Assembly: GCF_003755175.1 (NCBI RefSeq)
Contig: NZ_RKHX01000003.1
Location: 372,001-436,000, forward strand
Source of the DNA: Cellulomonas sp. PhB150
GTDB lineage: Bacteria; Actinomycetota; Actinomycetes; Actinomycetales; Cellulomonadaceae
Length of the DNA: 64,000 bases
Direction: 5' to 3'
The notes beneath the pieces were generated by a model. That model did no database searches. It was not told the origin of the DNA and saw only the letters and a program-made list of their open reading frames with translations. Positions 13,285 through 35,158 of the stretch are shown here, piece after piece (positions within the stretch are counted from its first letter, which is position 1; the number at the start of each line of letters is the position of its first letter). Position numbers and translations under genes: made by a program.

Positions 13285-13505
13285 CTTGATGCCAGATCGG
13301 TCACCGGAGACCGAGAACAGTCCATCAGGTCCGCCGGCGCCCAGAGCTCAGAGCCCAGGCGCGGGCGGACGAACACAGACAGCCGAGCGCACGCCGAGTG
13401 CAGTTGTCGTCATGCCCGAACCGCGCGAGACGTCGCCTGACGTCCCGTCCACGGTGCCGACATGCCTCCACGGGGCTCGCCTGCAGGACAAGGAGTGCAA
13501 GCCAC

Positions 13506-17108: not shown

Positions 17109-17115
17109 CCCGCGC

Positions 17116-17162
17116 GTGACCTGCGGAGACGCCGGCCGACTGCTGGCGTCTTCGCAGGTCAC
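17116..17162 (+). terminator. Hairpin after the GH43 gene
   Basis: An 18-bp stem with one mismatch: 17116-17133 pairs with 17145-17162 across an 11-base loop, seven bases past the stop codon. It is a strong candidate transcription terminator and could work in both directions, since the next gene converges. Confidence 0.75.
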
Positions 17163-17205
17163 CGCAAGGCTGGACCGACCAGCGACCCGCAACCGCTGAT
17201 CCGAG

Positions 17206-17535
17206 TCACCACTCCCCGAGGAACCACGACGGCTGCAGCACGGCAATGACGCACGTGCCGCACAGGAAGAACAAGATGGCTGCTCGTGCGCTGCGCGGCC
17301 GGACGTCAACCGCGGCGGTCGGTTCGCCGTGGGCGTGGTCGACTGCACCGTCCTGAAGCGCCAGCCGGTCGTTCCAGTGCACGACTGCGCGAAGTGGGTC
17401 GAATCTCGTGCCGAGCAGGAGCCGGAGGTTGAGGAGGGATGCGCTCGCCAGTCCACCGTCTGGTGTCCCACTGATCACGTCGAGCTTGGCGACGCCGATC
17501 AGGATCAAAGGTGGCAGCGAGGCCGCGATTGCCAC
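17206..17535 (-). CDS. Hypothetical small membrane protein, possibly 5'-truncated
   Basis: 109 residues from a GTG. Hydrophobic segments lie at both ends (about 2-18 and 85-103) with a hydrophilic middle. The frame stays open upstream to about 17611 and the added residues (…WFDPLVQGDSLHAP…) look like coding sequence, but no plausible ATG or GTG was found there and the neighbouring gene ends at 17608. This suggests loss of the original 5' end. Base composition is less GC-rich than its surroundings, consistent with foreign origin. No family recognised. Confidence 0.45.
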   Translation of the reverse strand: MAIAASLPPLILIGVAKLDVISGTPDGGLASASLLNLRLLLGTRFDPLRAVVHWNDRLALQDGAVDHAHGEPTAAVDVRPRSARAAILFFLCGTCVIAVLQPSWFLGEW

Positions 17536-17607
17536 AGCCTTGGCCGGTGCGTGGAGGCTATCGCCCTGAACGAGCGGATCGAACCAACGAGCTCGGGCCT
17601 GTCGGGA

Positions 17608-18558: not shown

Positions 18559-18574
18559 GCGGCCAGGATAAGCA

Positions 18575-18593
18575 CAAGGTGAGGCTTACCTAA
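18575..18593. promoter_or_regulatory. DtxR/IdeR-type iron box
   Basis: On the minus strand the 19-mer TTAGGTAAGCCTCACCTTG matches the IdeR/DtxR consensus at 14 of 19 positions, including the intact TTAGGT half. It is centred about 26 bp upstream of the siderophore-interacting-protein start, overlapping its expected promoter. Confidence 0.65.
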
Positions 18594-18642
18594 ACCCCCT
18601 GTCCACGTGAGCCACGGCACGATGGCCGCTTGCGCGGCCGCG

Positions 18643-19731: not shown

Positions 19732-19749
19732 GGCACCCATGGTGGCAGG

Positions 19750-19775
19750 CAGTATTCGGACATCTCGGACATCGA
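19750..19775. promoter_or_regulatory. Tandem 9-bp repeat in the VIT1 promoter region
   Basis: TCGGACATC is repeated exactly in tandem (19756-19764, 19765-19773), next to a minus-strand AATACT that could be the VIT1 -10 element. A regulator binding site is possible but unproved. Confidence 0.3.
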
Positions 19776-19849
19776 GCCGAGTTCGAGTTGCCGAATCGGT
19801 GGGTCCGTTGGACCGTCGCATGTCACGAGAACAGGACTGGGGGCCGGCG

Positions 19850-20257
19850 ATGCGCGCCGAACGGACGGTGGACCCGCACTACAGGGCCGTCGCTCCTGCA
19901 CGCCACTGGGCCGCCGACAAGCTCGCCGAGGCCGGCATCCCGGCCGAGCGCCGCGAGCTCCTGGTCCTGCTCGTCAGCGAGCTCGTCACCAACGCGGTCG
20001 AGCACGCGTGGCCGCCCGTGATCCTGCGGGTCGACGTGGACGACGAGCGCATCCGCGTCGAGGCGACCGACAGCCACCGCGACGAGCCGGTGCTCCGTGA
20101 CGCCCCGCCGACCGACGGCGGGGGCCGCGGCGTGTGGCTCATCGACAGGCTCGCGAGCGACTGGGGGTCCGACCTCGACGCTGCAGGCGACTGCAAGACC
20201 GTCTGGTTCGAGCTGCGCACCGACGACCACGCCGGCGTCGCCGCCTTCGGCGCGTAG
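19850..20257 (+). CDS. RsbW-like anti-sigma / serine kinase ATPase
   Basis: 135-residue single-domain GHKL ATPase. The N box is LLVSELVTNAVEHA, the G1 box VEATDSHRDEP and the G2 box GGGRGVWLIDRL. Such proteins bind sigma factors and phosphorylate STAS antagonists in stress-response partner switching. No sigma factor is adjacent; the only STAS protein in the window lies about 33 kb away (52872-53210), so pairing is speculative. ATG at 19850 was chosen because GGGGG precedes it at about 8 bases; ATG 19820 is an alternative. The stop codon lies within a perfect 24-bp tandem duplication. Confidence 0.85.
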   Translation: MRAERTVDPHYRAVAPARHWAADKLAEAGIPAERRELLVLLVSELVTNAVEHAWPPVILRVDVDDERIRVEATDSHRDEPVLRDAPPTDGGGRGVWLIDRLASDWGSDLDAAGDCKTVWFELRTDDHAGVAAFGA

Positions 20258-20282
20258 CGCGTCGCCGCCTTCGGCGCGTAGC
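20235..20282. repeat. Perfect 24-bp tandem duplication spanning a stop codon
   Basis: GCGTCGCCGCCTTCGGCGCG plus TAGC is present twice, back to back (20235-20258, 20259-20282). The first copy encodes the last residues and TAG of the anti-sigma-type gene; the second repeats them as untranslated DNA. It looks like a recent slippage or unequal-crossover event. Confidence 0.9.
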
Positions 20283-20284
20283 GC

Positions 20285-20650
20285 TCAGTCCTCCCAGGGC
20301 GGCGTCTCGTCCAGCTTCGCGTAGTACTTGGCCAGGTGGCTCTTGACCCGGTCGCGGTCCTTGTCCGGCAGGTCCACGCCGCCGCGCGAGCCCTGCATCA
20401 CCGCAGCGGCGGCGAAGACCCCGCGCGGGACGGCCTTGAGCCTGCCGTCGATCACGTCGGCGATGAGCAGCTTGTAGCCGGTGAAGTTCTCCTTGGCGTC
20501 CGCGTCGTACCAGACGTGGGCGTCGCGGTACTTCGCGTTCGGCTCGTCCTGGGCGTCGGCCCACGCGCGGACCCGCTTCTCGGCGCCGGCGCCGTCCCAC
20601 GCGCGGTCGCGGTCCGCCAGGGGCAGGTCGCCGAAGCTCGTCACGGCCAT
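20285..20650 (-). CDS. Small hypothetical protein, translationally coupled to an F420 oxidoreductase
   Basis: 121 residues, hydrophilic, no signal or membrane segment. Conserved-looking blocks are NFTGYKLLIADVIDGRLKAV and KDRDRVKSHLAKYYAKL. The latter recalls short C-terminal tails found on some phage prohead-protease-type proteins and on free-standing bacterial relatives, but no function follows. Its ATG is two bases past the stop of the upstream oxidoreductase gene (TGACCATG), so the two are probably co-translated. Confidence 0.75.
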   Translation of the reverse strand: MAVTSFGDLPLADRDRAWDGAGAEKRVRAWADAQDEPNAKYRDAHVWYDADAKENFTGYKLLIADVIDGRLKAVPRGVFAAAAVMQGSRGGVDLPDKDRDRVKSHLAKYYAKLDETPPWED

Positions 20651-20652
20651 GG

Positions 20653-21639
20653 TCAGTCCTCCGTCGTCTTCGCCGCGGCCCGCAGGGCCTCGAGCAGGGG
20701 AGCGGCAGCCTCGTCGAGGAACCGCTGCTGGCCGTCGTCCCCGATCTGGACGATGGCCACGTCGGTGAAGCCGGCCTCCCAGTAGGCGGCGACGGCCTCG
20801 ACGTGCGCGTCGATGTCCGGCCCGCACGAGATGGACTCGGCGACGTCCTCGGGCCGGACGAACTGGCTCGCGGCCTCGAACCCGGCCGGCATCGGCAGGT
20901 CCGCGTTGACCTTCCAGCCGCCGCTGAACCACCGGAACTGGTCGTGCGCGCGCTCGATCGCGCGCTCGCGCGACGGGTCCCAGCAGATCGGCACCTGGCC
21001 GATCTTGCGGGAGGCCTCCCCGCCGCGTGCCTTGTCCCAGCTCGTCACGAGGTCGGCGTCCGGCTCGACGGCCACGAGGTGGTCGACGAGCGGAGCAAAC
21101 CGCTCGACCGAGTGGTCACCGCTGACCGCGACGCCGAGCTCGACCGGGTTCTCGGGCAGGTCCCACAGCTTGGCCTGGTCCGCCCGGAAGTGGTTGCCCT
21201 CCCAGGTCACGACCTCGCCGTCGAGCAGCGAGCGGATGATCGAGATCGCCTCCTCGAGCATGTCCTGCCGCTCCCCGACCGCCGGCCAGCCCTCGCCGAC
21301 CACGTGCTCGTTGAGGTTCTCGCCCGAACCGAGGTTGAGCTGGAAACGCCCGCCCGACAGCACCGCGAGGGTGGCGGCCTGCTGCGCGACGACCGTCGGG
21401 TGGTAGCGCATGGTCGGGCAGGTCACGTACGTCATGAGCTCGACGGTGCTGGTCGCCTGCGCGACCGCGCCGAGCAGCGTCCAGGCGTTCGGCGCGTGCC
21501 CCTGGCTGTCCAGCCACGGGAAGTAGTGGTCGGAGGAGACGAGCAGGTCGAAGCCCGCCTTCTCGGCGTCGACGGCGTAGCCGACCAGCTCGCGGGGGCC
21601 GGACTGCTCGGTCATGAGGGTGTATCCGAATCGGGTCAC
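20653..21639 (-). CDS. LLM-class F420-dependent oxidoreductase (G6PDH-like family)
   Basis: 328-residue luciferase-like TIM-barrel enzyme of the F420-dependent glucose-6-phosphate-dehydrogenase-like family. The opening TRFGYTLMTEQSGPRELV, SSDHYFPWL, and FQLNLGSGENLNEHVVGEGW segments are hallmarks of that group. Likely uses deazaflavin F420 as hydride carrier; substrate unknown. The GTG start keeps the conserved N-terminus and follows AGGGG; the ATG at 21615 would delete it. Transcribed divergently from the giant-gene pair, with a long inverted repeat between. Confidence 0.88.
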   Translation of the reverse strand: MTRFGYTLMTEQSGPRELVGYAVDAEKAGFDLLVSSDHYFPWLDSQGHAPNAWTLLGAVAQATSTVELMTYVTCPTMRYHPTVVAQQAATLAVLSGGRFQLNLGSGENLNEHVVGEGWPAVGERQDMLEEAISIIRSLLDGEVVTWEGNHFRADQAKLWDLPENPVELGVAVSGDHSVERFAPLVDHLVAVEPDADLVTSWDKARGGEASRKIGQVPICWDPSRERAIERAHDQFRWFSGGWKVNADLPMPAGFEAASQFVRPEDVAESISCGPDIDAHVEAVAAYWEAGFTDVAIVQIGDDGQQRFLDEAAAPLLEALRAAAKTTED

Positions 21640-21691
21640 CCCCTGACGGTCACACCGGGCGGCCCCGCGCGCACGTCGGCGACGCATCCCG

Positions 21692-21764
21692 CCGCACTTG
21701 TGACGGGAGTGCACTCCTGACGCAGCCGTCGCGCCCCACCAGACAACTCCTGTCACAAGTGCGG
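21692..21764. repeat. 19-bp inverted repeat with 35-nt loop in a divergent promoter region
   Basis: CCGCACTTGTGACGGGAGT (21692-21710) is complementary to 21746-21764 with one G-T pair. The left end also overlaps a separate perfect 12-bp palindrome, GGAGTGCACTCC (21706-21717). It lies between the F420 oxidoreductase and the first giant gene, where both promoters must be. It may be an operator, an RNA structure in a leader, or a dispersed repeat. Confidence 0.7.
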
Positions 21765-21879
21765 CTATCTCGGGCCGGTGGGTGGGGCGGTGGAGCCCTT
21801 GACGCGGATGGGCATGTATCTCTATGCCTGGTTTGTCCCCCTTTCGGGTGACACGGATTCCCGCGCGGAAGGCCAGGCG

Positions 21880-24800
21880 ATGACGCTCTGGGACGACCTG
21901 CCCGGCTCGACCACCTCCGGTGGGGCGCTCGACACCCTGCGCCCGCTGCTCGACTCGGTCGACACCCCGACCTCGACCGAGCGCGCCGAGGACGATGGCA
22001 CGTGGAAGATCTGGTCGACGACGATCGGCGGTGACCGGTCGCTCGAGATGGACCTGAGCAGCGGCGCGGTCACGCACGGCGGGTCGACCGGCGACGGGGG
22101 AGCGATCGAGCTCTCGTCCGGCTTCGGGATCGAGCTGGGGCTGCGGCTGACCGGCCCCGGTGGCGATCCCGACGGCACGGTGCGCGTCACCCTGACCGTC
22201 CCGAGCTCGGCGATCCGCATGCCGTACCTGCGCGGCGCGATGCTCGACGCCCAGGGACAGCTGCGCGCCGACCCGGCGCATCCCCTCGTGCGGTTCAGGC
22301 TCCCCAGCGTCAAGGTCCGCGTGCTGCGCCCGGCCGGCGGGTCAGTGAGCGTCGACCTCATCCCCGTGCCGAGCGCCGGGACGCCCGAGGACCCCGTGGT
22401 CGACCTGGTGCGGATGGAGCCGCCGTACGCGCTCGTCGGGCCGGGCGACGTGGTCGGGTTCGCGTTCCGGGCCGCGGTGCTCGACCTGTCCGGCACGGCC
22501 GGGCCGTCCGGCGTCCCGGCGGGTGCGCGCACGATGCCCGACGAGTGGCAGGGGCTCTACCTGCCCGAGGTGCGGCTGTTCGTCGCGCCGAACGGGCTCG
22601 AGGGGCTCGCCGTGAGCGCGGGCGTGCGCAACCTGTGGATCGGGTTCGGGGCGCACGCCGGCGTGACCGGGGAGCTCAACGCCGAGGTCGTCAACCGCGG
22701 GTCCGCGCCGACCGTGCGGATCCGCTTCCAGACGCCGGCGGGCGAGTGGATCGGCGTCCCGGACACCGACCCGATCTCCGCGGTCGAGCTGCCCGAGGAC
22801 GTGACGATGTTCGTCGACGGCGGCGGAGGCATCGCTCCCCTGCGCATCCGGCTGCTCGTCGACGGCACCGAGACCCTCTCCGACCGCGTCGCGCTGACCG
22901 TCCCCGACACGGGCACCGTGCACGTCGAGGTCACCGTCACGGACGCGGGGTCGCACGCGACGACGAGGACCTTCGACGCCCACCGCCGCACGGGTGCGGC
23001 CCACGGTTCGTCGTCCGCGCGCGACGTCGTGCCCACCACCACGTCGAACGTCGGCTTCCGGGTCCGCACGCAGGCCGCGACCGGCAACGCCGTGACCGTC
23101 TCGCTGAACGAGGACCCGCACGGAACGGTGACCTGGACCTGGGCCGGGCACGCGCCGGTCACCGGCCCGACCGCCCAGGTCGACGTCGCCACCGGCACGC
23201 CCGTCGACGTCCAGGCCCGGATCACGCGCACGGGCGGCGGGGCGACGACGACGATCGACGCCTACTACTCGTTCGACCACCCGACCCCCGACGAGATGCG
23301 CAGCGGCCCGTCCACGCCCTGGTGGATGGCGCCCGGCAACCTCCGCTCGCAGCGCTTCCGCACCCGCACCGATCCCGGCACGGCGCCGAACCTGCTCAGC
23401 CCGGACGGCCTGGCCCGCCTCGGTGCGCTGCCGAAGAACGTGCACTGGACCGTCGAGGGATGGGCCTCCTACGAGGGGCACTCCGGCACCGCGGGCTACA
23501 ACCGCGAGCTGTCCGAGCGCCGCCGCGACGCCCTGATCGCGCTGCTCGAGGACACCTCCCGCACGGAGCTGCACTTCACGGACGTCACCCCGGTCGACCC
23601 GGGGCACGGCGAGACCGACGCCCAGGCCAGCGGCCCGACCGGAACGCCCGCGCAGGACGCCCCCGACTGGTGGCACGCCCGGGCCAGCGCCGCGGTCGAC
23701 CAGACCATCGACGTCACCGCCCACCTCGAGCGCCCGGCCGCCGACCCGCCGCCGCAGACCACCGACCCGGCTCCCACCCGCACCCCGGTCCCGGCGTGCT
23801 TCCGCAAGCTCGGCGTCACGGTGGAGCTCGTCCGCTCGACGTTCGTGCGCGCGGAGATCTACGGCGAGATCGACATCCAGACCGCGGCCGAGAACCAGAT
23901 CGGCTCGGTCAAGCCCGGCGCGACCATCCCGCCGCGCGACAACCCGAACGACGGGATCAGCCAGTTCCTGCTGCGGCTGCGCATCGCCGAGGACCGCTCG
24001 AGCTGGGACGTCACCGCGCAGTTCAAGGCCATCGACGCGGACAAGGACGGCCTGTGGCAGCAGGTCCGCGGCGCCGGCGACCAGACCGGCCTCGACATCC
24101 TCGGGGCCGTCGCGGTGCTGTCCCCGCTGCTGGCCGCCGTCACGCCGCCTTCCCCCACCGCGGGCGAGCTCGTGCCGATGGTCATCGCCGGCGGGCTCGC
24201 TGTCGGCGTCGGCGCGGCCGGGGTCATCAAGACCCAGAAGATCACGCTGCACGGCGGGCAGCTGGTCGTCACGAGCGGGCTCGTCGACCCCGCCACCGGC
24301 GACGGTCCACGCAGCACGAGCGTCAGCGTGCTGCTCGACGTCGAGACGGCGTTCACGTTCGACATCGGCATCCTCAAGGTCGAGCCGACCAAGCCGCTGA
24401 CCGCGCGCTACAAGGCGGTCGGCCTGCGCTCGCAGTGGCGCTCCGACCCGCAGCCGGACGGGACCGTCCAGTACGTGCCGCTCCCCGTGTTCGACCCGTC
24501 GGCGGGCTACTCGCTCGACATCCCGATGGGCTCGCTCATCGGGCCCGACGCGCTCAAGGACATCCTGCGCGTCATCGGCGGCCGGATCAGCCGCGACAAC
24601 CCGCTCTACCTCGAGGTCGAGGTCGGCCTCGGCATCGACCTCGGCATCGTCACCGTCGACTCGGCGCGCGTGCGGATCCGGCTCGACCAGGCCGAGTTCC
24701 CCCAGCTCACCGCGCTGGGCGCGAGCATCGACGTGCCGAACGTCATCCACGGCTCCGGGTACGTCAAGATCGACGAGTCCGGGTTCGAGGGGGCGTTCGA

Positions 24801-27800
24801 CGCGACCCTGACGCCCGTGAAGCTGCGCATCGCCGCGCAGATCGCGGTCAAGCAGAAGGACGGCGTGACCGGGGTCCTCATCGGCGCCGAGGTCGAGTTC
24901 CCCGTGCCGATCCCGCTGGCCAACTCCGGGCTGGCGATCTACGGCTTCCTCGGCGGCATCGCCGTCAACTTCGCGCGCGACGAGCCCACGGGCGTCCAGG
25001 TCCCCGCCCTGGCGTGGCTGCAGTCCCAGCTCACCGACCCCAACGGCTCGGTCATGAAGCCCTCCGGCTGGAAGGTGCAGCCCGGTGCCTTCGCGGTGGC
25101 CGGCGGCATCCTGCTCGGCACGTCCGAGGGCGGCTACATCGTCCACCTCAAGGGGCTCGTGCTCGTCGAGGTGCCCGGCCCGCGACTGCTGTTCGCCATG
25201 AAGGCCGACGTCATCAAGGCGCCCCCGGCCCTGAAGAACCCGAGCGAGCAGGCCACGTTCCTCGCGGTGCTCGACCTCGACTTCGGCCGCGGCACGATCA
25301 CCATCGGCCTGGTCGCGTCCTACGAGGTGCCGAGCCTGCTGACCATCCGCGTCCCGGTGACCGCGTTCTTCGACGTCAACCACCTCGACCAGTGGTTCGT
25401 CGACCTCGGCACGAACACCAACCCGGTGACCGTCAACGTCCTGGACGTCTTCGAGGGCACCGGCTACCTCATGGTCCACGGCGACGGCACGACGATCCAC
25501 ATCGAGGGCCTCCCGCTCGTGACCACGGGCATCACGGTCGCCGTCGGGTTCCACATCAGCGTCGTGCTGATGGGCTCCAAGGCCGTCGGCCTGTACCTGG
25601 AGGTGGCCGCGGGCTTCGACGCGATCGTCTCGTTCTCCCCGTTCGCGATCGGCGGGCGCATCTACGTCTCCGGCGAGCTGCGGCTGTGGATCATCGGCAT
25701 CTCCGCGAGCGCCGAGCTGACCGTCCTCGTCGGGCGCCAGGTCGTCGACCAGGGGCTGCCGACCGAGCACGTCGTCGACCGGACGTACGTGCACGGCCAG
25801 GTGTGCGGCGAGGTCGACTTCTTCTTCTTCAGCGTCAAGGGCTGCGTCGAGCTGACCATCGGCGACCCGACCCCGCTGCCGCTCGTCCCACCGCCGCTGG
25901 TCTCGGGCGTCAGCCTGGTCTCGCGCTCGCCCGCGCTGGTGGACGGGTCCGCGGTGGACCGGGCCGTCGACGGGGTCATCGGCCGGGCGGTCGAGGCGGG
26001 GTCGGCCGACGAGCTGCCGAGCGTGCCGCTCGACGCGATCCCGGTCGTGCTGTTCGAGACCGCGCCGGGCGTCAAGGCGGGGGACGTCGTGCTCGGCGGG
26101 GTCGCGCGCGGCGCCAACGGGCTGCCCGCCAACCCGTGGGTCCAGCGGGGCGACTCCTGGTTCCGCTACCGCGTCACGAAGGTCGAGCTCGTCGGCGACC
26201 TCACGGCCGGCAAGACCCCGGCGACCTGGTGGGCGCGCGCACTCGTCGGCGACCCGCTGGTCGGGCCCGCGCTCGCCCTGCTGTCGTGGCTGCCGACCGC
26301 GACCCCGCGTGCCGTGACGCTCGGCCGCGAGCTCACGACGACCGTCGAGGAGCGCTGGGGCACGATCTGCACGCCCGTCGCCAAGGCCGTCCCGGTGCTG
26401 TGGACCTTCGACGAGCAGGCCACCGGCCCCTCCGCGGCGGGCTGGACGCTGACCGGGGTGGCGTGGCCCGACGAGCCCGGCACCTGGCGCTCGGCACCGC
26501 CCGACTCCCAGGCCGTGGTGCGCGAGCCGTGGCGGACCGGCGACGCGTTCGTCGACCTCCTGCAGGGCACGGACCCGGCCGTCGTCGTCGGCGACCGCGT
26601 GACCTGCCCGCGCAAGGGCGGGGTCCTCGGGACCCGCCGCGAGGCGCTGGCCGCCACGAACGGCTCCGCCGCGACCTTCGGGCCTGGCTCGCTGCCGGCC
26701 GCGGGCGCCGGGACCCCCGACGTGCTTGCGCTGCTCGCGGGGGGCGTCTCGCTGCAGGACGCGCAGGCCGCGTGGGGGCGCGTCGCGACCGGGGACGGCC
26801 AGAGCCAGTGCGAGGGGCGCATCCTGCGCTCGCCCACCGGCGACGAGCCCGAGCCCGCCCCGGGCGCCGACGACCTCGAGATCGAGCAGGTCAAGCAGGC
26901 GTGGGACGCGCTGCGGTTCTCCCCGAGCGAGCTCGCGGACAGCGTCACGCTGCGGGTCGAGGCGGGGCTCGCGTCGTTCGACGCGCTGCTGCTCGTGCCT
27001 CGTCGCGGCATCGAGAAGGGGCTGGTGCTGCGCTCACGCGACGCCGACGGGAACGTCATCGACGAGTACCGCGCGAGCGGCGCGGACATGATCACCTCGA
27101 GCCACCCCATCCCGCCGCAGTGGCTGGCCGACCCGTGGTCCGACCCCGTGCAGCGTGCGGCCCAGATCGCGGCGCGCGTCATGGCCGCCGGCGGGGGGCT
27201 GCTGCCGGTGCTGCTCACGCCGAAGGTGCCGGACGGCACGGTGGAGATCGAGATCGGCTGGGACCGTGACGCGAAGGACCTCCTCGGCCTCGCCTTCTGG
27301 GTCGTCGCCGCCGCGGGGACCACGGCGGCCGAGCTGCACCGCGAGGACTGGGACACCACGACGATCACCACGGACAAGGGCGCCGTCGTCACGGCCGTGA
27401 CCGACGACCCCGACGACCACGCCCTGCTGCTGCCCGGCCGCGAGTACACCGTGCGCGTGAGCTGGGAGGCGCAGTCGATCAAGCAGGAGGCCAAGCCGGC
27501 CGCCACCGTCCCCGAGTCGTACACCGCGGGCACCCCGCAGGAGTTCCGCTTCCGCGCCGACGGCACGGACAAGGCTCCCGAGCGGCTCGAGCCGTGGCTG
27601 CTGACCACCGCGCCGGGCGTCGGGGAGGCGGGCGTGCTGCTCGGCGAGCCGCTGCGCATCGCGCTGGCCACCCAGAAGGTCGGCGCGCTGTTCGACGCGT
27701 ACGGCGAGGAGATCCGGGTCGTCGTGCGGTCCGCGTCCGGCCGGCACCCGTCGCCCCCCGGCGGCGGTGGCCCCGGCGTGCCCCTGACGATCCCCGCCGA

Positions 27801-28614
27801 GGTCGACGGCACGCTGCTCGCCGCGGTCGAGGGGGTCGCGGTGATGACGCCGTGGCAGGAGACGGTGACCGCGCTGCTCGACACCCTGCCGTGCACGCCC
27901 GATGCCGGGTCGACGACCTACCACTCGGTCATCACGCTCGACTACCCGCTCGAGCCGCTGACCGACTACCTGCTCGACGTGCTCGCCGTGACCAAGGGCG
28001 CCCCCGAGAACGCGGAGGGCCGACGGCTCTACCGCGTGCCGTTCACCACGTCGCGGTTCCACGACGTGCCCGAGCTCGCCCGCCTGCTCGCCGCGACGCG
28101 CCCCCTGCACGCGCTGGTCCCGGTCCCCGCCGGGCTCGCGACCCTCGCGGAGCGGCCGACCGGCGGCCAGCTCGACGAGGCGTTCCAGGCGGCCGGGCTC
28201 CCCGTGCCGCAGGTGCCCCGGTACCCCGCGGTCCAGGTGCTGTGGTCGCCCGACGCGGTGCCGCAGCCCGTCGCCGTGGTCGTCGAGGGCAGCGAGGCCC
28301 TGTGGCGCTCGCGGCTGGTCGCGACGCGCGTCACGGGACCGGTCGACGCCGACGACCCGACGCACGAGTGGTGGGCGCCGAGGCCAGGCGACTGGATGAC
28401 GCTGGCCGTGGCGGGCGGCGGCGCACCGGTGACGCGCGTCGTGCGCGCACCCGGCGACACCCGGGCCGTGATCCTGCTGGGCGCGGGTGCGCGCGGCAAG
28501 CAGCTGACCGTGCAGCTGCGGCGGGAGGCCGACGACCTGTCCGGCACCGCCGCGGCGGCCGTGACCGCCGTGCAGGTGCTGCTCGAGCGGGCCCCCTGGG
28601 AGGTGGAGGACTGA
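21880..28614 (+). CDS. Giant beta-rich protein with OmpA-like segment, function unknown
   Basis: 2244 residues with no signal peptide (begins MTLWDDLPG). Residues 1-500 are beta-rich with Ig-like stretches. About 510-617 resembles an OmpA C-terminal domain (EGWASYEGHSGTAGYN, then LSERRRDA and DPGHGETDA), though the usual GHTD is altered. About 640-1330 is a long run of alternating hydrophobic strands (for example GGRIYVSGELRLWIIGISAS), reminiscent of DUF6603-type proteins; this resemblance is from memory and unchecked. About 1330-2244 is Ig/FN3-like. ATG 21880 is preferred because GGAAGG lies about 8 bases upstream; an upstream in-frame GTG (21778) would add 34 residues. Its TGA overlaps the next ATG, so the two proteins are coupled and may form one complex. 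Confidence 0.8.
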   Translation: MTLWDDLPGSTTSGGALDTLRPLLDSVDTPTSTERAEDDGTWKIWSTTIGGDRSLEMDLSSGAVTHGGSTGDGGAIELSSGFGIELGLRLTGPGGDPDGTVRVTLTVPSSAIRMPYLRGAMLDAQGQLRADPAHPLVRFRLPSVKVRVLRPAGGSVSVDLIPVPSAGTPEDPVVDLVRMEPPYALVGPGDVVGFAFRAAVLDLSGTAGPSGVPAGARTMPDEWQGLYLPEVRLFVAPNGLEGLAVSAGVRNLWIGFGAHAGVTGELNAEVVNRGSAPTVRIRFQTPAGEWIGVPDTDPISAVELPEDVTMFVDGGGGIAPLRIRLLVDGTETLSDRVALTVPDTGTVHVEVTVTDAGSHATTRTFDAHRRTGAAHGSSSARDVVPTTTSNVGFRVRTQAATGNAVTVSLNEDPHGTVTWTWAGHAPVTGPTAQVDVATGTPVDVQARITRTGGGATTTIDAYYSFDHPTPDEMRSGPSTPWWMAPGNLRSQRFRTRTDPGTAPNLLSPDGLARLGALPKNVHWTVEGWASYEGHSGTAGYNRELSERRRDALIALLEDTSRTELHFTDVTPVDPGHGETDAQASGPTGTPAQDAPDWWHARASAAVDQTIDVTAHLERPAADPPPQTTDPAPTRTPVPACFRKLGVTVELVRSTFVRAEIYGEIDIQTAAENQIGSVKPGATIPPRDNPNDGISQFLLRLRIAEDRSSWDVTAQFKAIDADKDGLWQQVRGAGDQTGLDILGAVAVLSPLLAAVTPPSPTAGELVPMVIAGGLAVGVGAAGVIKTQKITLHGGQLVVTSGLVDPATGDGPRSTSVSVLLDVETAFTFDIGILKVEPTKPLTARYKAVGLRSQWRSDPQPDGTVQYVPLPVFDPSAGYSLDIPMGSLIGPDALKDILRVIGGRISRDNPLYLEVEVGLGIDLGIVTVDSARVRIRLDQAEFPQLTALGASIDVPNVIHGSGYVKIDESGFEGAFDATLTPVKLRIAAQIAVKQKDGVTGVLIGAEVEFPVPIPLANSGLAIYGFLGGIAVNFARDEPTGVQVPALAWLQSQLTDPNGSVMKPSGWKVQPGAFAVAGGILLGTSEGGYIVHLKGLVLVEVPGPRLLFAMKADVIKAPPALKNPSEQATFLAVLDLDFGRGTITIGLVASYEVPSLLTIRVPVTAFFDVNHLDQWFVDLGTNTNPVTVNVLDVFEGTGYLMVHGDGTTIHIEGLPLVTTGITVAVGFHISVVLMGSKAVGLYLEVAAGFDAIVSFSPFAIGGRIYVSGELRLWIIGISASAELTVLVGRQVVDQGLPTEHVVDRTYVHGQVCGEVDFFFFSVKGCVELTIGDPTPLPLVPPPLVSGVSLVSRSPALVDGSAVDRAVDGVIGRAVEAGSADELPSVPLDAIPVVLFETAPGVKAGDVVLGGVARGANGLPANPWVQRGDSWFRYRVTKVELVGDLTAGKTPATWWARALVGDPLVGPALALLSWLPTATPRAVTLGRELTTTVEERWGTICTPVAKAVPVLWTFDEQATGPSAAGWTLTGVAWPDEPGTWRSAPPDSQAVVREPWRTGDAFVDLLQGTDPAVVVGDRVTCPRKGGVLGTRREALAATNGSAATFGPGSLPAAGAGTPDVLALLAGGVSLQDAQAAWGRVATGDGQSQCEGRILRSPTGDEPEPAPGADDLEIEQVKQAWDALRFSPSELADSVTLRVEAGLASFDALLLVPRRGIEKGLVLRSRDADGNVIDEYRASGADMITSSHPIPPQWLADPWSDPVQRAAQIAARVMAAGGGLLPVLLTPKVPDGTVEIEIGWDRDAKDLLGLAFWVVAAAGTTAAELHREDWDTTTITTDKGAVVTAVTDDPDDHALLLPGREYTVRVSWEAQSIKQEAKPAATVPESYTAGTPQEFRFRADGTDKAPERLEPWLLTTAPGVGEAGVLLGEPLRIALATQKVGALFDAYGEEIRVVVRSASGRHPSPPGGGGPGVPLTIPAEVDGTLLAAVEGVAVMTPWQETVTALLDTLPCTPDAGSTTYHSVITLDYPLEPLTDYLLDVLAVTKGAPENAEGRRLYRVPFTTSRFHDVPELARLLAATRPLHALVPVPAGLATLAERPTGGQLDEAFQAAGLPVPQVPRYPAVQVLWSPDAVPQPVAVVVEGSEALWRSRLVATRVTGPVDADDPTHEWWAPRPGDWMTLAVAGGGAPVTRVVRAPGDTRAVILLGAGARGKQLTVQLRREADDLSGTAAAAVTAVQVLLERAPWEVED

Positions 28615-31600
28615 TGGATCGCATCTCCCGTCCGTACTGGCTGCGGGCGACCGGGTCGCAGGTGCCGTGGGCGACGGTGCTGCGTGGGCAGCTCGTCGGC
28701 GTGCGCGGCCTGCACGCGACCACGCACGTGTCGGACTCGGTCGCGCCGTGGATCCGCAACGCCGCGGCCGAGCTCAAGGAGCGGGCCGTCGACGTGCAGC
28801 TGCGCTGGCAGTGCAACCCGCTGCTGGGCGTGCCGTTCGGACCGTTCACCGTGTGGGTGGGCCGGCCGCGGCCGAAGGTCGGCAAGGTCGACGTGGTGGT
28901 GCGCGAGCACGACGACGGGCTCGTCCTGCGGCTGCCGACGATCGCCGCGATCGTCGTCGTCGACTGCCAGGTCGTCGACGCGACCCAGCCCGTCGGCATC
29001 GTCGGGACCTACCGGGGCGGCGGGCTCACCGAGGCGATGGGCGCCGCGGCCGTGACCGTGCCCGGCGGCGGGCGCGCGATCCTGCGGCTCAAGACGGCGG
29101 GTATCACCCGCGTCCTGCTGAGCAACGGCACCGACCCCCAGGTCCAGATCGTGCCCCTGCAGGAGATGATCGACGACCCCGGCTGGAAGCCGATCGAGCT
29201 CGTCGGGCTGCCCGTCGACGCCACGTGGCCGGGCACCGACTACGACACCTCGAAGCAGGGCATCATCTCGGCGCTCACCGACCCGGTGACCGCGGCCCAG
29301 CAGCGCCTCGACCGTGGCGGCCCGCCGCTCGGCTGGGCGCCGGTGACCTCGACCGGGCACGCCGTCTCGCCCGCGTGGCGCGCGCCGGACCCGACCGCGC
29401 TGCTCAAGGAGGTCGTCGGGGACCTGCTGCCCCGGATCGACCGGCTCTACCGGCCCGGCCGCACCCCGGCAGACCAGGCGGCGCTCGCGGACTCCCCGCC
29501 GGTCGACCCGCCCTCGTCGGGCGGCCGGACGTCGTCGCTCGCGACGACCGCGACGCTCTCGCCGCTGTCCCTGCTGACCCTGCCTGCGTCGGCCGACCCG
29601 TTCCTCGCGCTGGCCACCGGCTTCGGCACCGCCTACCCGGCCACGCAGCTGCCCCGCGGCGAGGGTCTCGAGTTCATGGTCACGGCCGACTACCCCGACA
29701 CCCCGGCCCGCACCGGGCCGGTCCAGGTCGCCGCGTACGTCCCCGAGCCCGAGCCGCACATCGCCACCACCACCCCGCACGCGCTGACCACCCGCCGCTC
29801 GGGCCTGCTGGCGCCGGAGTCGCGCGACGGCGCGTGGCGCGAGTCGGTGCAGGTGCAGTGGGACCGCGTGCCCGGGTCGGTCGCGATGGGCCGACCGACG
29901 TCCGGGGTCATCGCCCGGTACACGGGGGCCTCGGCCGCCGAGGTGCTGGTCGACGAGCGGCTCGCGGGCGACCGCCGCGCGCTCGTGCTCGTGCCCGACG
30001 GGCCGGCCCCCACGCCTGCCTCCACCCGCACGTCGATGGTCGACGCCGACCAGGAGATCCCGCTCGGCAGCGGCGGTCGGCACGTCGGCTACCCCATCGC
30101 GGTGCAGGACGTGTTCGGCGTCTGGTCCCCGTGGGCCGACGTGCCCTGGGACGGCGACGAGCCCGGGCCGCCCGGGCCGCACGTCGTCGGCGTCTCGCTG
30201 ACCAGCAGCTACACCGGCTCGACGACGTGCCCTGCGACCCTGGCCGTCGAGATCTCCGTGGAGTGGCGCGACCGCACGCCCTCGTCGGTCGCGCTCGCCG
30301 CCGTGCTGTTCCGCACCCCCACGGCGGCTGCACCCCCGCCCGCGGGCGTCGACCCCGTCGCCGCCGCGCCCGCCGGGGCGTTCCGGCGCGACGTCACCCT
30401 GCCCTTCGTGGGCGAGACGCTGACCGGCCCCGGCGACGTGACGATCGAGCACCTGGACGAGGAGGGCGACGCGGTCGTCGCGCCCGGCTCCGCGCAGGGC
30501 GCGTACGGCCGTCGCTACCGGGTGACGATCCCGGTGCCGACGCTCGACTTCTCCGCCACCCCGCGCTGGGGCGTGCAGGTCTGGGCGCGCGTGCCGCTCG
30601 TCGCCGTGGGCGACGCGGGCTGGCTCCCCGACCCCGCGCACCCCGCCATCGCGAACGTCGCGAGCCCGGTGCCCGTCCCCCCGATCCTGCCGCCGGCCCC
30701 GCCCGGGGTGCCGATCGGCTCGACCCCCGACGCCCAGGGACGCAGCCACGTGCGCGTGCACTGGTCGGTCGCGGCGGGTGCGGCGCTCGACGGCCGCAAG
30801 GGCATCGCCGTGTGGGAGGCGGCCGAGACGTCGCTGCGGCAGGCTGCCGGCCTCGCGCAGAAGGCGCCCGACGGGACCCTGCCGGGCGTGCGGCTCGCGC
30901 AGCTGTGGGCCGCGTACGACGGGATGACGCCGACGGCGAGGCGCGCGGCCTTCCGCCGCCTGCTCGAGCTGCCCGGCACCGCCCGCGAGGCCGACGTCGC
31001 GCTGCCCGCGGGGTCGACCGACATCCACCTGTTCACCGTCACCACGCTGTCCCCGACGGGCGTCGCGTCCGACTGGCCCACCGGCTCGCCCGCGCACGCC
31101 GTCCTGCAGTCCGTGGCCGCGCCGCGCCTGCGCCACCCCGGGCCGCCGCGCGTGCGGACGGTGCTCGGCGCCGCCGGCACGGTCTCGGTGTCGCTGTCCG
31201 CCGACTCCGACGTGCCCGTCGCCTCGTTCCTGCTCTACCGCACCCGCTCCGCCGAGGCCGCCCTGCGCCCGGAGACGATGGGACCCGCCTTCGCGACGGT
31301 GCCCGCCGTCGCACCCGGCCCCGGCGCGCCCGTCGACCCGGCGTCCGGGCTTGCCCTGTACTCGGGGTCGTGGTCGGGGGCGTTCGACGAGTCGTGGGAC
31401 GACTGGCACGTGCGGGCAGTCGCCGTGCCCGTGCTCACCGTGCCCGTCGAGGCGGTTCGGGGCCTGCCCTCGCCGGCCAGCGACGACGTCGTCGTCCGCG
31501 TCCGGCCGGCCGGCCCGCCGGACCTCGCGCCGCTCGTCGCGACCGTGTTCGGCGGGGGTCACGACGGGGTGCTCGTGACCACGTCGACGTCGTCGACCTC

Positions 31601-32387
31601 CCGGACGCTGGCTGACGGGGTCTTCCGGGTCTCTGCCGTCGCGGACGGCATCGGGACTGCGGACCCGCTCGCGCTGGGTCTCGTGCCGGCCGGGCCCGTG
31701 ACCGGGACCTCGCCGCCTGCCGCGTTCGCTCTCGTCGCCGGACCGCGCGCGGCCGGGCGCACGCCTCTGGCCCTGTGGTTCACGCGACCCGTGGCCACCT
31801 CGGCGGTCGGGGTGGCCGTGACGCTCGTCGACCCGGCCGGACGCTCGTCGGCCCAGGCCGTGACCGTGCCCGCATGGGTGCCGGACCCGCCCTCGCTCGA
31901 CCTTGTCTCGGTCCAGCTGCTGTCCGGCTACGTGCTCGCGCGGGTCGCGTCGGACGCGCCGCTCGAGGACCTGCCTCCGACCGTCCTCACCGTGCTGGTC
32001 TCGGCGTCGCGCCGGACCTTCCCGCCGATCCGCCTGCCCCTGCGGGTGCCTGCGGCGGACCCGTCCGGTGCGCGGGCGGTCCGCGAGGCGCTGCAGCGGC
32101 TCGACCTGCCCGACGCGCTGAGCTCCGACGCCGTGAAGGACATCCGCCTGCCGGGCCTGCCGGGGCCGGTCACGCTGCCCGTCTCGCTGTCGATCGCGCT
32201 GCCGGACGTCCCCCGCCGCGCCCGGATCAGCACCGCACCGATCGTCGTGACGCGGGCGACCCTCGAGCAGCCGCACGAGTACGACGTGGTCGTCCGGGTG
32301 GCGCCGCCGTTCACGCTCCGGGTCTCGCTGCTCACCGGCGACGGTCGCTCCGCGCAGGTGTCTCAGGCGGTCAGGGCAGGGTCATGA
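28614..32387 (+). CDS. Giant beta-rich/FN3-like partner protein, function unknown
   Basis: 1257 residues, starting in ATGA overlap with the preceding giant gene. There is no signal peptide or obvious transmembrane helix. The N-terminal ~130 residues contain a WQCNPLLGVPFGPFTVWVGR stretch followed by strand-rich sequence. Proline-bounded modules from about residue 400 onward resemble FN3 or Ig-like domains (one begins PPAPPGVPIGS near 695 and contains VRVHWSV). Cysteines are few. No catalytic motif recognised. The 3' end overlaps the converging map gene by 17 bp. Probably a structural or binding protein acting with its neighbour (inference). Confidence 0.8.
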   Translation: MDRISRPYWLRATGSQVPWATVLRGQLVGVRGLHATTHVSDSVAPWIRNAAAELKERAVDVQLRWQCNPLLGVPFGPFTVWVGRPRPKVGKVDVVVREHDDGLVLRLPTIAAIVVVDCQVVDATQPVGIVGTYRGGGLTEAMGAAAVTVPGGGRAILRLKTAGITRVLLSNGTDPQVQIVPLQEMIDDPGWKPIELVGLPVDATWPGTDYDTSKQGIISALTDPVTAAQQRLDRGGPPLGWAPVTSTGHAVSPAWRAPDPTALLKEVVGDLLPRIDRLYRPGRTPADQAALADSPPVDPPSSGGRTSSLATTATLSPLSLLTLPASADPFLALATGFGTAYPATQLPRGEGLEFMVTADYPDTPARTGPVQVAAYVPEPEPHIATTTPHALTTRRSGLLAPESRDGAWRESVQVQWDRVPGSVAMGRPTSGVIARYTGASAAEVLVDERLAGDRRALVLVPDGPAPTPASTRTSMVDADQEIPLGSGGRHVGYPIAVQDVFGVWSPWADVPWDGDEPGPPGPHVVGVSLTSSYTGSTTCPATLAVEISVEWRDRTPSSVALAAVLFRTPTAAAPPPAGVDPVAAAPAGAFRRDVTLPFVGETLTGPGDVTIEHLDEEGDAVVAPGSAQGAYGRRYRVTIPVPTLDFSATPRWGVQVWARVPLVAVGDAGWLPDPAHPAIANVASPVPVPPILPPAPPGVPIGSTPDAQGRSHVRVHWSVAAGAALDGRKGIAVWEAAETSLRQAAGLAQKAPDGTLPGVRLAQLWAAYDGMTPTARRAAFRRLLELPGTAREADVALPAGSTDIHLFTVTTLSPTGVASDWPTGSPAHAVLQSVAAPRLRHPGPPRVRTVLGAAGTVSVSLSADSDVPVASFLLYRTRSAEAALRPETMGPAFATVPAVAPGPGAPVDPASGLALYSGSWSGAFDESWDDWHVRAVAVPVLTVPVEAVRGLPSPASDDVVVRVRPAGPPDLAPLVATVFGGGHDGVLVTTSTSSTSRTLADGVFRVSAVADGIGTADPLALGLVPAGPVTGTSPPAAFALVAGPRAAGRTPLALWFTRPVATSAVGVAVTLVDPAGRSSAQAVTVPAWVPDPPSLDLVSVQLLSGYVLARVASDAPLEDLPPTVLTVLVSASRRTFPPIRLPLRVPAADPSGARAVREALQRLDLPDALSSDAVKDIRLPGLPGPVTLPVSLSIALPDVPRRARISTAPIVVTRATLEQPHEYDVVVRVAPPFTLRVSLLTGDGRSAQVSQAVRAGS

Positions 32388-33135
32388 CCTCGGCACCGTC
32401 GTCGGTGATCGCGATGGTGTGCTCGCTGTGCGCGGTCCGGCAGCCCGTCGCGCTGCGCAGCGTCCAGCCGTCGGCGTCGGTGACGAGCTCGTCGGTGTCG
32501 GCCATGACCCACGGCTCGAGCGCCAGGAGCAGGCCGGGGCGCAGCGTGTAGCCGCGGCCCGCGCGCCCGTCGTTGGCGATGTGCGGGTCCTGGTGCATCG
32601 TCGACCCGACGCCGTGGCCGCCGAAGTCGCCGTTGATCGGGTAGCCCGCCGCGGTCAGCACCTCGCCGATCGCGTGCGAGAGGTCGCCGACGCGCGCACC
32701 GGGCATCGCCACCGCGATCCCCGCGCGCAGGGCCCGCTCGGTCGCGTCGATCATGGCCTCGTCCTGCGGGCTCGCGGACCCGACGACGAAGCTGATCGCC
32801 GAGTCGGCGACGACGCCCTTGAGCGAGACGGCGAGGTCGAGCGAGAGCAGGTCGCCGTCCGCGAGCGTGTAGTCGTGCGGCAGCCCGTGCAGGACCGCGT
32901 CGTTGACCGACGTGCAGATGTGGTGCCCGAACGGGCCGCTGCCGAACGACGGCGCGTAGTCGACGTAGCAGGACAGCGCGCCCGCGTCGGCGATCATCTG
33001 CCGGGCCCAGCGGTCGATGTCCAGGAGGTTGGTGCCCACCGTGCTGCGACCCTTGAGGGTCTGCAGGATCTGGGCGACGAGCGCGCCCGTGTCCTTGGCT
33101 CGGAGCAGCTCGGCGGGGCTGAGGATCTCGATCAT
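32371..33135 (-). CDS. map: Methionine aminopeptidase, type I
   Basis: Removes the initiator methionine from nascent proteins. 254 residues, type I length. The five metal ligands are visible in order: Asp in LSLDLAVS, Asp in VADSAISF, His in GGHGVGSTMH, Glu in LALEPWV and Glu in AHSEHTI. The substrate-site HHICTSVNDAVLHG stretch is also present. Start ATG, with an AGAAGG-like site upstream. It diverges from an XRE regulator across a repeat-bearing 66-bp gap, so that regulator may affect map expression. This may be one of several map copies, as actinobacteria often have two. Confidence 0.93.
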   Translation of the reverse strand: MIEILSPAELLRAKDTGALVAQILQTLKGRSTVGTNLLDIDRWARQMIADAGALSCYVDYAPSFGSGPFGHHICTSVNDAVLHGLPHDYTLADGDLLSLDLAVSLKGVVADSAISFVVGSASPQDEAMIDATERALRAGIAVAMPGARVGDLSHAIGEVLTAAGYPINGDFGGHGVGSTMHQDPHIANDGRAGRGYTLRPGLLLALEPWVMADTDELVTDADGWTLRSATGCRTAHSEHTIAITDDGAEVMTLP

Positions 33136-33162
33136 GGTGCCTTCTTCGTCGTCCTACCAATA

Positions 33163-33198
33163 ACTATCCCGGCCATACTATCCCGGTATTACTATCGG
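33163..33198. promoter_or_regulatory. Three direct repeats of ACTATC(CC)GG in a divergent promoter
   Basis: ACTATCCCGG at 33163-33172 and 33177-33186, and a shortened ACTATCGG at 33191-33198, are spaced 14 bp apart between map and the XRE gene. The sequence is noticeably AT-richer than its surroundings. Likely an autoregulatory operator for the small XRE protein; the third copy ends four bases before its ATG. Confidence 0.55.
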
Positions 33199-33201
33199 CT
33201 C

Positions 33202-33471
33202 ATGGTTCGACTGCCGCTCACCACTGCCGAGCTCGAGCGCGGGCAGCGCCTGGGCGCCCTGCTGCGCCGGGCCCGCGGCTCGCGCTCCATCCTGGAGACC
33301 GCGCTCGACGCGGGAGTCTCGCCCGAGACGCTGCGCAAGATCGAGTCGGGCCGCGTCGCCACCCCCGCGTTCCCGACGATCGCGGCGATCGCCGACGTGC
33401 TCGGGCTGTCGCTCGACGCGGTGTGGGCCGAGATCAGCGATCCCGCGGCGTCGGGCCGGCTGGCTTCCTAG
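33202..33471 (+). CDS. Small XRE-family helix-turn-helix regulator
   Basis: 89 residues, essentially one XRE/Cro-type DNA-binding domain (about 14-75): LETALDAGVSPETLRKIESG is the recognition core, followed by FPTIAAIADVLGLSLD. Probably acts as a dimer on the three-copy repeat directly upstream. Its TAG stop shares the tetranucleotide CTAG with the stop of the converging gene. Confidence 0.82.
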   Translation: MVRLPLTTAELERGQRLGALLRRARGSRSILETALDAGVSPETLRKIESGRVATPAFPTIAAIADVLGLSLDAVWAEISDPAASGRLAS

Positions 33472-34088
33472 GCCGCGACCGGGCGGGTCCACACCTCGCC
33501 CTCGCGGTGGAAGCCCACCCGCGTCAGGTACGTGCGGGCCTGGGCGTTGTCGCCGTGCTCGAGCGTCTGGAAGCCCTTCGCCGCGAACACCCCGCTGCGC
33601 TGGTAGACGTACTGCCCCGGGGTGAAGTCGCGGAACCGGGGCGTCACGTAGTCCATCTCGACGCGGCCGACACCGTTGCCCGCGTCGCGCACGACGACCA
33701 TCCCGACCGCCTCGTCCTTGCGCGCGACGACCCACACCGAACGGTCGTCGCCCACCGGGTCGAGGGTGTCGGGGCCGAACGTGGCGATGTCGTCGCGGTG
33801 CACGGCCAGGATGTGGCGCCACAGCGCGTCGTCGGTGCCCACCTCGATGACCTCGTAGGTCACGTCGTCGTTGCGCTCGCGCTGCAGCCGGATCACCCAG
33901 TAGACGTCGATGATCGTGATGACGCCGTTCATGACCGCGAAGGGCCACACGCCGATGGCGGCGTTGTAGCCCGTCGCGAGCGCCGCGCCGACGAGGTTCA
34001 TCCAGCGGAACCGCAGCACGCGCGCCTGCATGAGGGACAGGATCACCAGGAGCGACCCGACCCAGCCCAGCAGGTCGAACCAGGGCAT
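33468..34088 (-). CDS. YgjV-like membrane domain fused to a GNAT-like domain
   Basis: 206 residues. The first ~75 form three hydrophobic helices like YgjV-family proteins (WVGSLLVILSLMQ, RFRWMNLVGA, WPFAVMNGVITIIDVYWV). Residues 85-206 resemble an acetyltransferase-type fold (VGMVVVRDAG, FAAKGFQTLEHGDNAQARTYLTRVGF). The latter ends with the usual GNAT stretch for acyl-CoA binding, but the pyrophosphate loop is not clear. ATG overlaps the stop of the upstream oxidoreductase (TGATG). Function unknown; a membrane-tethered acyltransferase is a guess. Confidence 0.7.
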   Translation of the reverse strand: MPWFDLLGWVGSLLVILSLMQARVLRFRWMNLVGAALATGYNAAIGVWPFAVMNGVITIIDVYWVIRLQRERNDDVTYEVIEVGTDDALWRHILAVHRDDIATFGPDTLDPVGDDRSVWVVARKDEAVGMVVVRDAGNGVGRVEMDYVTPRFRDFTPGQYVYQRSGVFAAKGFQTLEHGDNAQARTYLTRVGFHREGEVWTRPVAA

Positions 34089-35158
34089 CAGCTCGCCCAC
34101 GCTTCGCGCGCGGTGGTGACCGGCTCACCGGTGCGGCCGGCCTCCTCGATCGCCAGGCCGAGCAGGTGGTCCTGGCAGCCGTCCGCCAGCGGGTAGGGCT
34201 GCTCGGCCTCGCCGCGGACCCACGCCCCGGTGGCGGCCAGGATGCCGGCGACCGCGAGGTCGTCGTCGGCGAGGCGCGCACCGTGGAACTCGTTCCGGTA
34301 CAGGACTCGCCCGTCGAGGCTGATGTGCTCGAGGTCGAACCCGTCGAGGTTCTGCTCGAGGCCGGAGACCCTGCGGTTGAACGTCGACGTGAGGATGGTG
34401 CGCTCGTCGACCCAGCGCGTGACGGCGTCGTCGACCAGCTCGCCGTGCGAGCCGCGGACCACGATCCGGTTGGTGCGCAGCGGGTTGTGCCACTGGTTGT
34501 CGGTGAAGTCGTACAGCGCGCTGCGGCCCTGGCCGAAGTCGAGCGTGGCCAGGATGTTCCATGCCTCGCGGGGCTCGCTCGCGCCGGTGAAGCCGTCCCG
34601 GCCGACCGGGTCGAGCAGCCGTTCGGTCGTCGTCGTCGCGCGGACGGTGACCTCGTCGAAGCCCACCCCGAGGAACCGACGGATCAGCCCGACCGCGTGG
34701 TACAGGTGCGTCGACGAGATCTGTACGCTGCTCGCCTCACCGAGGATCCCACCCAGCACCGCGGCGAGCCGCGCCGCGTGCGCCGGCATGAACGGGCTGT
34801 GCTCGGCGACCTGCACGAGGCCTGACGCGCCCACGTCGCCCCACAGCGCGCGCAGGCCGTCGGCGTCCGGCGCCGGGGGCGTCTCGGCCAGGACCGGAAC
34901 GCCGCGGGCGACCAGCTCGCGGATCGCGTCGGGCGTCACGGGCCACGGCGTCGCGACGACGACGAGCTCGGGCGCCGCCAGCTCCGCCGCGGTGCGCACG
35001 GTCGGCACGCCCCACAGGCGCTCGACCTCGGCGCCGCGCTCGGCGGTGCGCGTCACGACGCCCACGCAGGCGAGCTGCTCGGGCAGGAGCCGTGCCATCC
35101 GCACGAAGAACTCTGCGCGCCAGCCGCTGCCGACCACGCCGAACCTGATGGGAGCCAT
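34088..35158 (-). CDS. Gfo/Idh/MocA-family NAD(P)-dependent oxidoreductase
   Basis: 356 residues with an N-terminal Rossmann fold (IRFGVVGSGWRAEFFVRMA, about 3-21) and the family's C-terminal alpha/beta substrate domain. The usual EKP motif is replaced by AETPPAP (about 92-98), so the canonical lysine is missing and substrate handling may differ. Typical substrates are sugars, inositols or other polyols. GAGGA precedes the ATG. It is first in an operon with the YgjV-GNAT fusion, with which it overlaps. No regulator or transporter nearby defines the substrate. Confidence 0.85.
   Translation of the reverse strand: MAPIRFGVVGSGWRAEFFVRMARLLPEQLACVGVVTRTAERGAEVERLWGVPTVRTAAELAAPELVVVATPWPVTPDAIRELVARGVPVLAETPPAPDADGLRALWGDVGASGLVQVAEHSPFMPAHAARLAAVLGGILGEASSVQISSTHLYHAVGLIRRFLGVGFDEVTVRATTTTERLLDPVGRDGFTGASEPREAWNILATLDFGQGRSALYDFTDNQWHNPLRTNRIVVRGSHGELVDDAVTRWVDERTILTSTFNRRVSGLEQNLDGFDLEHISLDGRVLYRNEFHGARLADDDLAVAGILAATGAWVRGEAEQPYPLADGCQDHLLGLAIEEAGRTGEPVTTAREAWAS

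Follow-up and report, generated by a model that had tools for sequence, protein, structure and literature searches.

Repeating beta-groove proteins, which are hydrophilic on the outside and include the AsmA-type proteins TamB and YhdP as well as VPS13 and ATG2, are among the closest described systems with which the genes reported here can be compared. In known groove proteins, each repeat unit consists of five strands and a crossing helix or loop, and the groove is lined by hydrophobic residues (PMC7613979); for TamB, the groove has been discussed as a route for phospholipids (PMC11014939). A gene of the family DUF6603 (PF20248), which is described as of unknown function only, and its downstream neighbor, here called A and B, are located in a 64,000-nucleotide stretch of Cellulomonas sp. 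PhB150 (contig NZ_RKHX01000003.1, positions 372,001 to 436,000), hereafter the window. Protein A, a DUF6603 member by score, likewise has long amphipathic strands, and we compare it with TamB/YhdP-type groove proteins without assigning it to that class. No papers naming DUF6603 or PF20248, or describing such a gene set, were found in the open-licence literature of PubMed Central.

Gene A (21880..28614, plus strand), identified from its open reading frame (ORF) and start, a PF20248 match, and homologues in 50 genome-contig loci, encodes a DUF6603 protein of 2244 amino acids (aa). Gene B (28614..32387, plus strand) encodes, as judged from its ORF, a Pfam scan, and a structural model, a predicted tandem FN3/Ig-like protein of 1257 aa without a Pfam family. 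A first-pass annotation of this DNA had both genes right in position and size, but the ATGA overlap it gave for their junction was wrong here: in the window, the stop codon of A (28612-28614) and the start codon of B (28614-28616) share one base in a TGATG (28612..28616, plus strand); ATGA junctions are seen in some relatives, for instance in Massilia. A and B are probably translationally coupled via this TGATG. The start of A is the ATG at 21880, where matches to relatives such as L006 to L010 begin, although a GTG at 21778 is in the same frame further upstream. In agreement with the annotation, visual inspection and a hydropathy scan of the N termini, with no dedicated predictor run, showed nothing like a signal peptide in either protein, and the first hydropathy stretch above threshold appeared at aa 736 in A and at aa 103 in B. 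A promoter and terminator scan found nothing.

Both genes are intact and coding and are kept by purifying selection. Compared with Cellulomonas rhizosphaerae, omega was 0.092 for A and 0.099 for B, and ranged from 0.047 to 0.172 in eight neighboring genes. It climbed with distance for A, B, and most neighbors, up to ∼0.5 for A and B in the comparison with C. alba, which we attribute to synonymous sites becoming saturated in DNA with strong codon bias. Since the A proteins of the window and of C. rhizosphaerae are 96% identical, the host must be closely related to C. rhizosphaerae.

The genome-contig scan for A yielded 50 loci. Together with the plasmid loci L002, L003, and L005 and the window, they made up the 54 A-bearing records analyzed; L001 was left out because it duplicates the window, and L004, a remote Mycetohabitans locus, was kept outside the set. 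The records are not independent, with Rhizobium tropici present twice, Massilia four times, Halomonas three times, and Cellulomonas (with the window) five times. As determined with an iterated profile, B follows A in 52/54 records from six phyla, some of them on plasmids. Of 612 gene calls, this profile, run for four rounds with the hit list still growing at the end, selected 53 whole or fragmentary genes, every one of them after A in its locus. B was missed in L041, whose contig ends with A, and in the Azospirillum locus L005, where A is followed by a 1083-aa gene that is weakly B-like (hhalign, 28%). This locus (10483-20823) comprises a shorter A-like gene, the 1083-aa gene, with an N terminus that appears B-like by eye, and a 786-aa gene.

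In 47 of the 52 records with both genes, the called start of B lay between −4 and +47 bases from the stop of A, and 32 of the 52 had an overlap of 1 or 4 bases as called. Exceptions to this spacing were L010 (where the DNA also offers a TGATG start), L033, L031, L052, and L053. A gap of 2050 bases extends from the called end of A to B in L052 (9501-11552), and in the draft assemblies L031 and L053 both genes are broken into several frames, with decay and sequencing error undistinguished. The protein distance matrices of A and B correlated with an r of 0.989 (48 loci), a value that any operon inherited or transferred as a whole would give. A conserved A-B module is well supported, and the gene neighborhoods bear out a pair that is kept together in six phyla and is not a decaying singleton. 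The view of A and B as tightly linked, undescribed giants also stood, as sequence and structure searches yielded no close match of either protein to a characterized system.

A tree of the strand run of A described below (50 rows, 46 of them with a group) exhibited two deep clades, each mixing phyla, and required seven changes for Pseudomonadota and three for Actinomycetota. This topology suggests transfer between phyla, in a tree in which long branches meet and in which paralogues could give the same pattern. Carriers are rare: A was found in 8/394 genomes of the class, including the window's own and one with a short match only (E value of 5e-4), and in 2/36 genomes of the genus, again with its own included. 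The PF20248 genome search missed the window's own copy and was not used for prevalence, and most A relatives scanned individually fall short of the PF20248 cut-off.

Window A itself matched PF20248 with 42 bits (E value of 6.4e-11; curated cut-off, 27 bits) at aa 911-1140 (24610..25299, plus strand), which confirms the DUF6603-type likeness noted earlier; besides DUF6603, only a sub-threshold PKD match was obtained among Pfam families at E values of ≤1. The conservation of A peaks over about aa 851-1400. When a profile built from 48 sequences for aa 505-1560 was compared with the PDB, OmpA-type chains matched its first hundred positions over ∼97 positions with a best E value of 2.2e-6. The OmpA-like part that the annotation had proposed is thereby upheld at profile level, and corresponds to about aa 510-606 (23407..23697, plus strand). 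In OmpA-like domains, the Asp of the GHTD-type motif contacts peptidoglycan (diaminopimelate). A shares the profile match, but in the aligned motif this Asp is replaced by Ser in the window clade and kept in most Halomonas and Paracoccus rows, A has no signal peptide, and four short A proteins are without the domain. These short proteins of ∼1750 aa (L038, L047, L048, and L051, from Streptomyces, Mesorhizobium, and Frankia) form one well-supported clade that spans two phyla.

Downstream of the OmpA-like domain, A contains two Ala/Gly-rich hydrophobic stretches (aa 736-754 and 765-783; 24085..24228, plus strand) with hydropathies of 1.89 and 2.07, both of which are helices in the model. An Ala-rich counterpart in the other deep clade aligns with this helix pair. 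Because that counterpart is mostly below the hydropathy threshold in the Halomonas/Paracoccus part of the clade, a membrane role of the pair is uncertain.

The helix pair is followed by the strand run, in which 25 long beta strands are predicted (aa 783-1327; 24226..25860, plus strand). The strands comprise 9 to 19 residues each, the last ending at aa 1327 of the model, and 19 of them are clearly amphipathic, with a clear hydrophobic face. The alternating-hydrophobic beta region of the first-pass annotation was recovered in that alternation exceeded local shuffles at aa 784-1340 (z of 5.3), but earlier regions of A did so as well (aa 1-330, z of 3.5; aa 330-515, z of 3.9; not after aa 1340), and alternation alone therefore fails to single out the strand run.

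The strands of outer-membrane barrels are rich in aromatic residues. Tyr and Trp together accounted for 3.0% of the strand run, and its hydrophobic face consisted of 52% Val/Ile/Leu and 15% aromatics. The residue makeup of both strand faces was close to that of TamB (Tyr+Trp, 3.0%; hydrophobic face, 54% Val/Ile/Leu and 10% aromatics) and YhdP (4.7%; 42% and 17%), in contrast to the barrels of LptD, TamA, and FimD (8.7-11.3%; 35-41% and 23-27%). Among eleven A proteins including that of the window, Tyr+Trp varied between 2.9 and 4.0%, and the face contained 43-58% Val/Ile/Leu and 13-22% aromatics. Tyr+Trp of the run remained within 2.6-5.0% in 51 A proteins across 43 to 75% GC, so the low content is not due to host GC. 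In 29/40 loci with a sufficient number of other genes, the run was also poorer in Tyr+Trp than these genes (mean, 3.4 versus 4.1%). This makeup favors an inward-facing, groove-type sheet over a membrane barrel, as far as composition can tell. The reading of A as an outer-membrane barrel is weakened, since the composition of its run is unlike that of LptD, TamA, and FimD (Tyr+Trp, 3.0% versus 8.7-11.3%); the lack of a signal peptide by eye and hydropathy points the same way.

B carried no Pfam family at E values of ≤1 in the window, and scans of 41 B members gave five families, each in 1 or 2 members (best, Big_6; E value of 0.013). Searching the PDB by sequence with B gave nothing. A model of aa 1-1199 had a mean predicted local distance difference test score (pLDDT) of 84.5 and a predicted template modeling score (pTM) of 0.55, and returned 1855 structural matches in the PDB, 120 of them at E values of ≤0.001. 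Among the 50 matches listed, over half were tandem FN3 or Ig chains, and no template modeling (TM) score exceeded 0.26; the others included alpha-2-macroglobulin/complement chains, a mastigoneme protein, and two phage tail-tip chains (ranks 40 and 48), and none closely matched the domain arrangement of B. According to its model, B is a string of FN3/Ig-like domains; this characterization, already proposed in the annotation, holds with a good model and low TM-scores.

The earlier two-gene picture was right in that the pair is real, but it missed both an empty chromosomal site, described below, and a third gene, C, that occurs elsewhere and not in the lineage of the window. Of the 48 records in which the sequence extends for 1500 bases or more past B, 24 have gene C as the following gene; it encodes 1032-1128 aa where whole. 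Its carriers belong to Pseudomonadota, Bacteroidota, Acidobacteriota, and Gemmatimonadota, with no Actinomycetota locus among those examined here. B and C were rejected as one family (hhalign, 0.1%). Pfam scans of seven C proteins, six of them whole and one partial, gave no credible match, and a PDB search by sequence gave only phospholipase D (PLD) alpha 1 at an E value of 3.4 (C-terminal part, 0.088), neither of which is significant. A search for C elsewhere in the window's own genome gave no match, but without a positive control this is uninformative. In one of the C-bearing loci (L033, 1061-6444), A-B-C is preceded by two genes that encode 1290 and 504 aa, the latter matching MotA/ExbB.

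The last third of C resembles one half of a PLD: in a single comparison, it aligned with the PLD of the Mycetohabitans locus L004 over 182 columns (hhalign, 97%; E value of 5e-11). C thereby matches, from the PLD/cardiolipin synthase superfamily, a gene close to another DUF6603 gene, but it is without the catalytic His and Lys; of the HKD motif, His and Lys were kept in 0/17 aligned C proteins and Asp in 17/17. The Mycetohabitans PLD keeps the motif, and its best match is cardiolipin synthase, far below the cut-off. It is adjoined by a 1322-aa, weakly B-like gene (hhalign, 69%) and by a gene annotated as DUF6603, which was missed by Pfam and recognized by the A alignment (99.9%). On this megaplasmid (L004, 5201-18222), the B-like, PLD, and DUF6603 genes lie in a row with transposase genes on either side.

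As the best explanation, which we put forward tentatively, A and B, sometimes with C, would form an unsecreted assembly in which A provides a hydrophobic groove for lipid or other apolar cargo and B an FN3 rod. A and B, plus C where present, would be subunits of one complex. The amphipathic strand run of A may form a long sheet whose hydrophobic inner side accommodates lipid or a different apolar molecule, and the hydrophobic helix pair in front of it might dock A on the membrane or open it to the membrane. The OmpA-like and C-terminal beta domains of A, with B as an FN3/Ig-like rod, would serve as a scaffold, and the PLD-like domain of C, having lost its catalytic His and Lys, may recognize the head group of a phospholipid or some comparable phosphodiester. 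We infer contact between A and B, retention of the assembly in the cell, a real groove, contact of the helices with a membrane, and a lipid cargo; the helix pair and the PLD-fold third subunit fit a groove without proving it. Lipid binding, already suggested by the annotation, thus gains indirect support from the residue makeup and the PLD link of C, but not from sequence homology to TamB or YhdP.

Several observations weigh against such a groove. A shows no sequence homology to TamB, YhdP, LptD, TamA, or FimD (hhalign probability of ≤0.3%); VPS13 and ATG2 were compared through Pfam only. The groove proteins differ from A further in that A has no N-terminal anchor and that its strand run is flanked by OmpA-like and FN3-like parts. 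Only one helix occurs inside the run, and a repeat of five strands plus a crossing element is not visible in the model (pLDDT of 70), which has a few short strands besides the 25 long ones; six of the 25 strands are without a clear face. A was modeled with fair confidence only (mean pLDDT of 70.3; pTM of 0.44), and Foldseek placed outer-membrane ushers on top (ranks 1 and 2), with LptD at rank 4, ApoB100 at ranks 3 and 10 with a TM-score of 0.07, and porins also present. Because the model is fair and the TM-scores are low (≤0.31 among the 50 matches listed), it leaves the fold of A unsettled. The compositional reference set is small, consisting of hand-picked slices of five E. coli K-12 proteins; the A face of L014 contains 22% aromatics, near the 23-27% of the barrels, and in 11/40 loci the Tyr+Trp content of the run does not fall below that of the other genes. 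Moreover, the window and its clade are without C after A-B, PLD-fold proteins act on nucleic acids too, and general annotation of neighbors is absent, so that a partner enzyme could have escaped notice.

It is possible, if on the whole unlikely, that A-B is instead a structural or adhesive giant, a rod-like scaffold or fiber that accumulates inside the cell, is released by lysis or a non-classical route, and binds surfaces or polysaccharides; the beta run would then reflect packing rather than a cargo groove. The tandem FN3/Ig-like model of B and the two phage tail-tip chains among its 50 listed matches agree with this, as do sub-cut-off lectin-like matches in the C-terminal part of the remote DUF6603 protein and the soil and rhizosphere names among the carriers. 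However, no signal peptide was seen, and the parts searched had no relatives in phages or other viruses: pattern scans of viral contigs confirmed none for A or B, a 507-aa part of A had no match among 50,697 phage records (B was not run against phages), and the best PHROGs match had an E value of only 0.41. In our judgment, 25 long strands with a Val/Ile/Leu-rich face also seem unusual for a plain adhesin. We consider it rather improbable that A is a membrane pore or translocator, a precursor that is soluble at first and then inserts its strands as a giant barrel, with insertion triggered by the hydrophobic hairpin and B acting as docking arm. The usher and LptD barrels that top the structural matches of A and the helix pair located just before the strands speak for insertion, but the TM-scores of these matches are low, A has no homology to FimD or LptD and far fewer aromatics, and Tyr+Trp of the run is far under that of the three real barrels at any host GC. 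Nor does any neighbor family apart from C occur in more than 8/54 loci, as judged from blastp clusters over short flanks in which most neighbors are unannotated and secretion genes were not searched for.

A defense or conflict system of unusual size would account for the patchy distribution in class and genus (8/394 and 2/36 genomes, own included), the transfer between phyla suggested by the tree, and the plasmid copies. Against this, PADLOC-DB models gave 0 matches for A and B, and no enzyme family was matched in either protein by library scans, as the annotation had held; a PADLOC scan of two C proteins gave one chance-level SIR2 match (E value of 0.038). We regard this possibility as quite remote from the data. 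Practically no weight is left for decaying or chance giant ORFs: the broken-up copies in L031 and L053 would fit them, but for the window copy they are already refuted by an omega of 0.09-0.10 compared with the sister species, like that of its neighbors, and by homologues in six phyla.

With the libraries used, no characterized relatives were found beyond the OmpA-like domain, the FN3/Ig-like folds, and the dead PLD-like domain. The A-B pair costs bacteria of six phyla ∼3500 codons, or ∼4600 with C. Actinomycetota carriers are taken to be without an outer membrane. If the groove is real, A would add another bacterial means of carrying apolar cargo in long beta grooves, also in Actinomycetota; we claim novelty for its kinship and not for its mechanism. 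More broadly, and doubtfully, these could be soluble, unsecreted lipid-groove machines that share no sequence kinship with AsmA, TamB, or VPS13, present in monoderms and diderms as an A-B(-C) cassette moving between phyla, with a PLD-fold subunit (its motif present in the remote locus and dead in the A-B-C family) that handles the same lipid. Even if there is no groove, A-B remains a module of giant proteins that is widespread, under selection, and without an assigned role.

In the window, A and B are part of a segment (21616..34087, strand not assigned) that also contains two minus-strand genes and is absent in some relatives. Nineteen loci without A were fetched as short stretches, 16 of them from the genus. 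In 6/19, matches to the flanking 320-aa gene (20653-21615) and GFO/IDH/MocA gene (34088-35158) lay 71-94 bases apart; the segment was therefore gained in the lineage of the window or lost in those relatives. In the other 13/19, the two flanking genes were not side by side in the stretch fetched, with a VIT gene on that side in L068 and L071. Elsewhere in the window, a glycoside hydrolase family 43 protein (13398-17108, plus strand) carries HYR and several I-set/Ig_3 domains, which are best known from animals, and a 1188-aa protein (36824-40390, plus strand) joins a TM0106-type RecB-like nuclease part to a helicase part.

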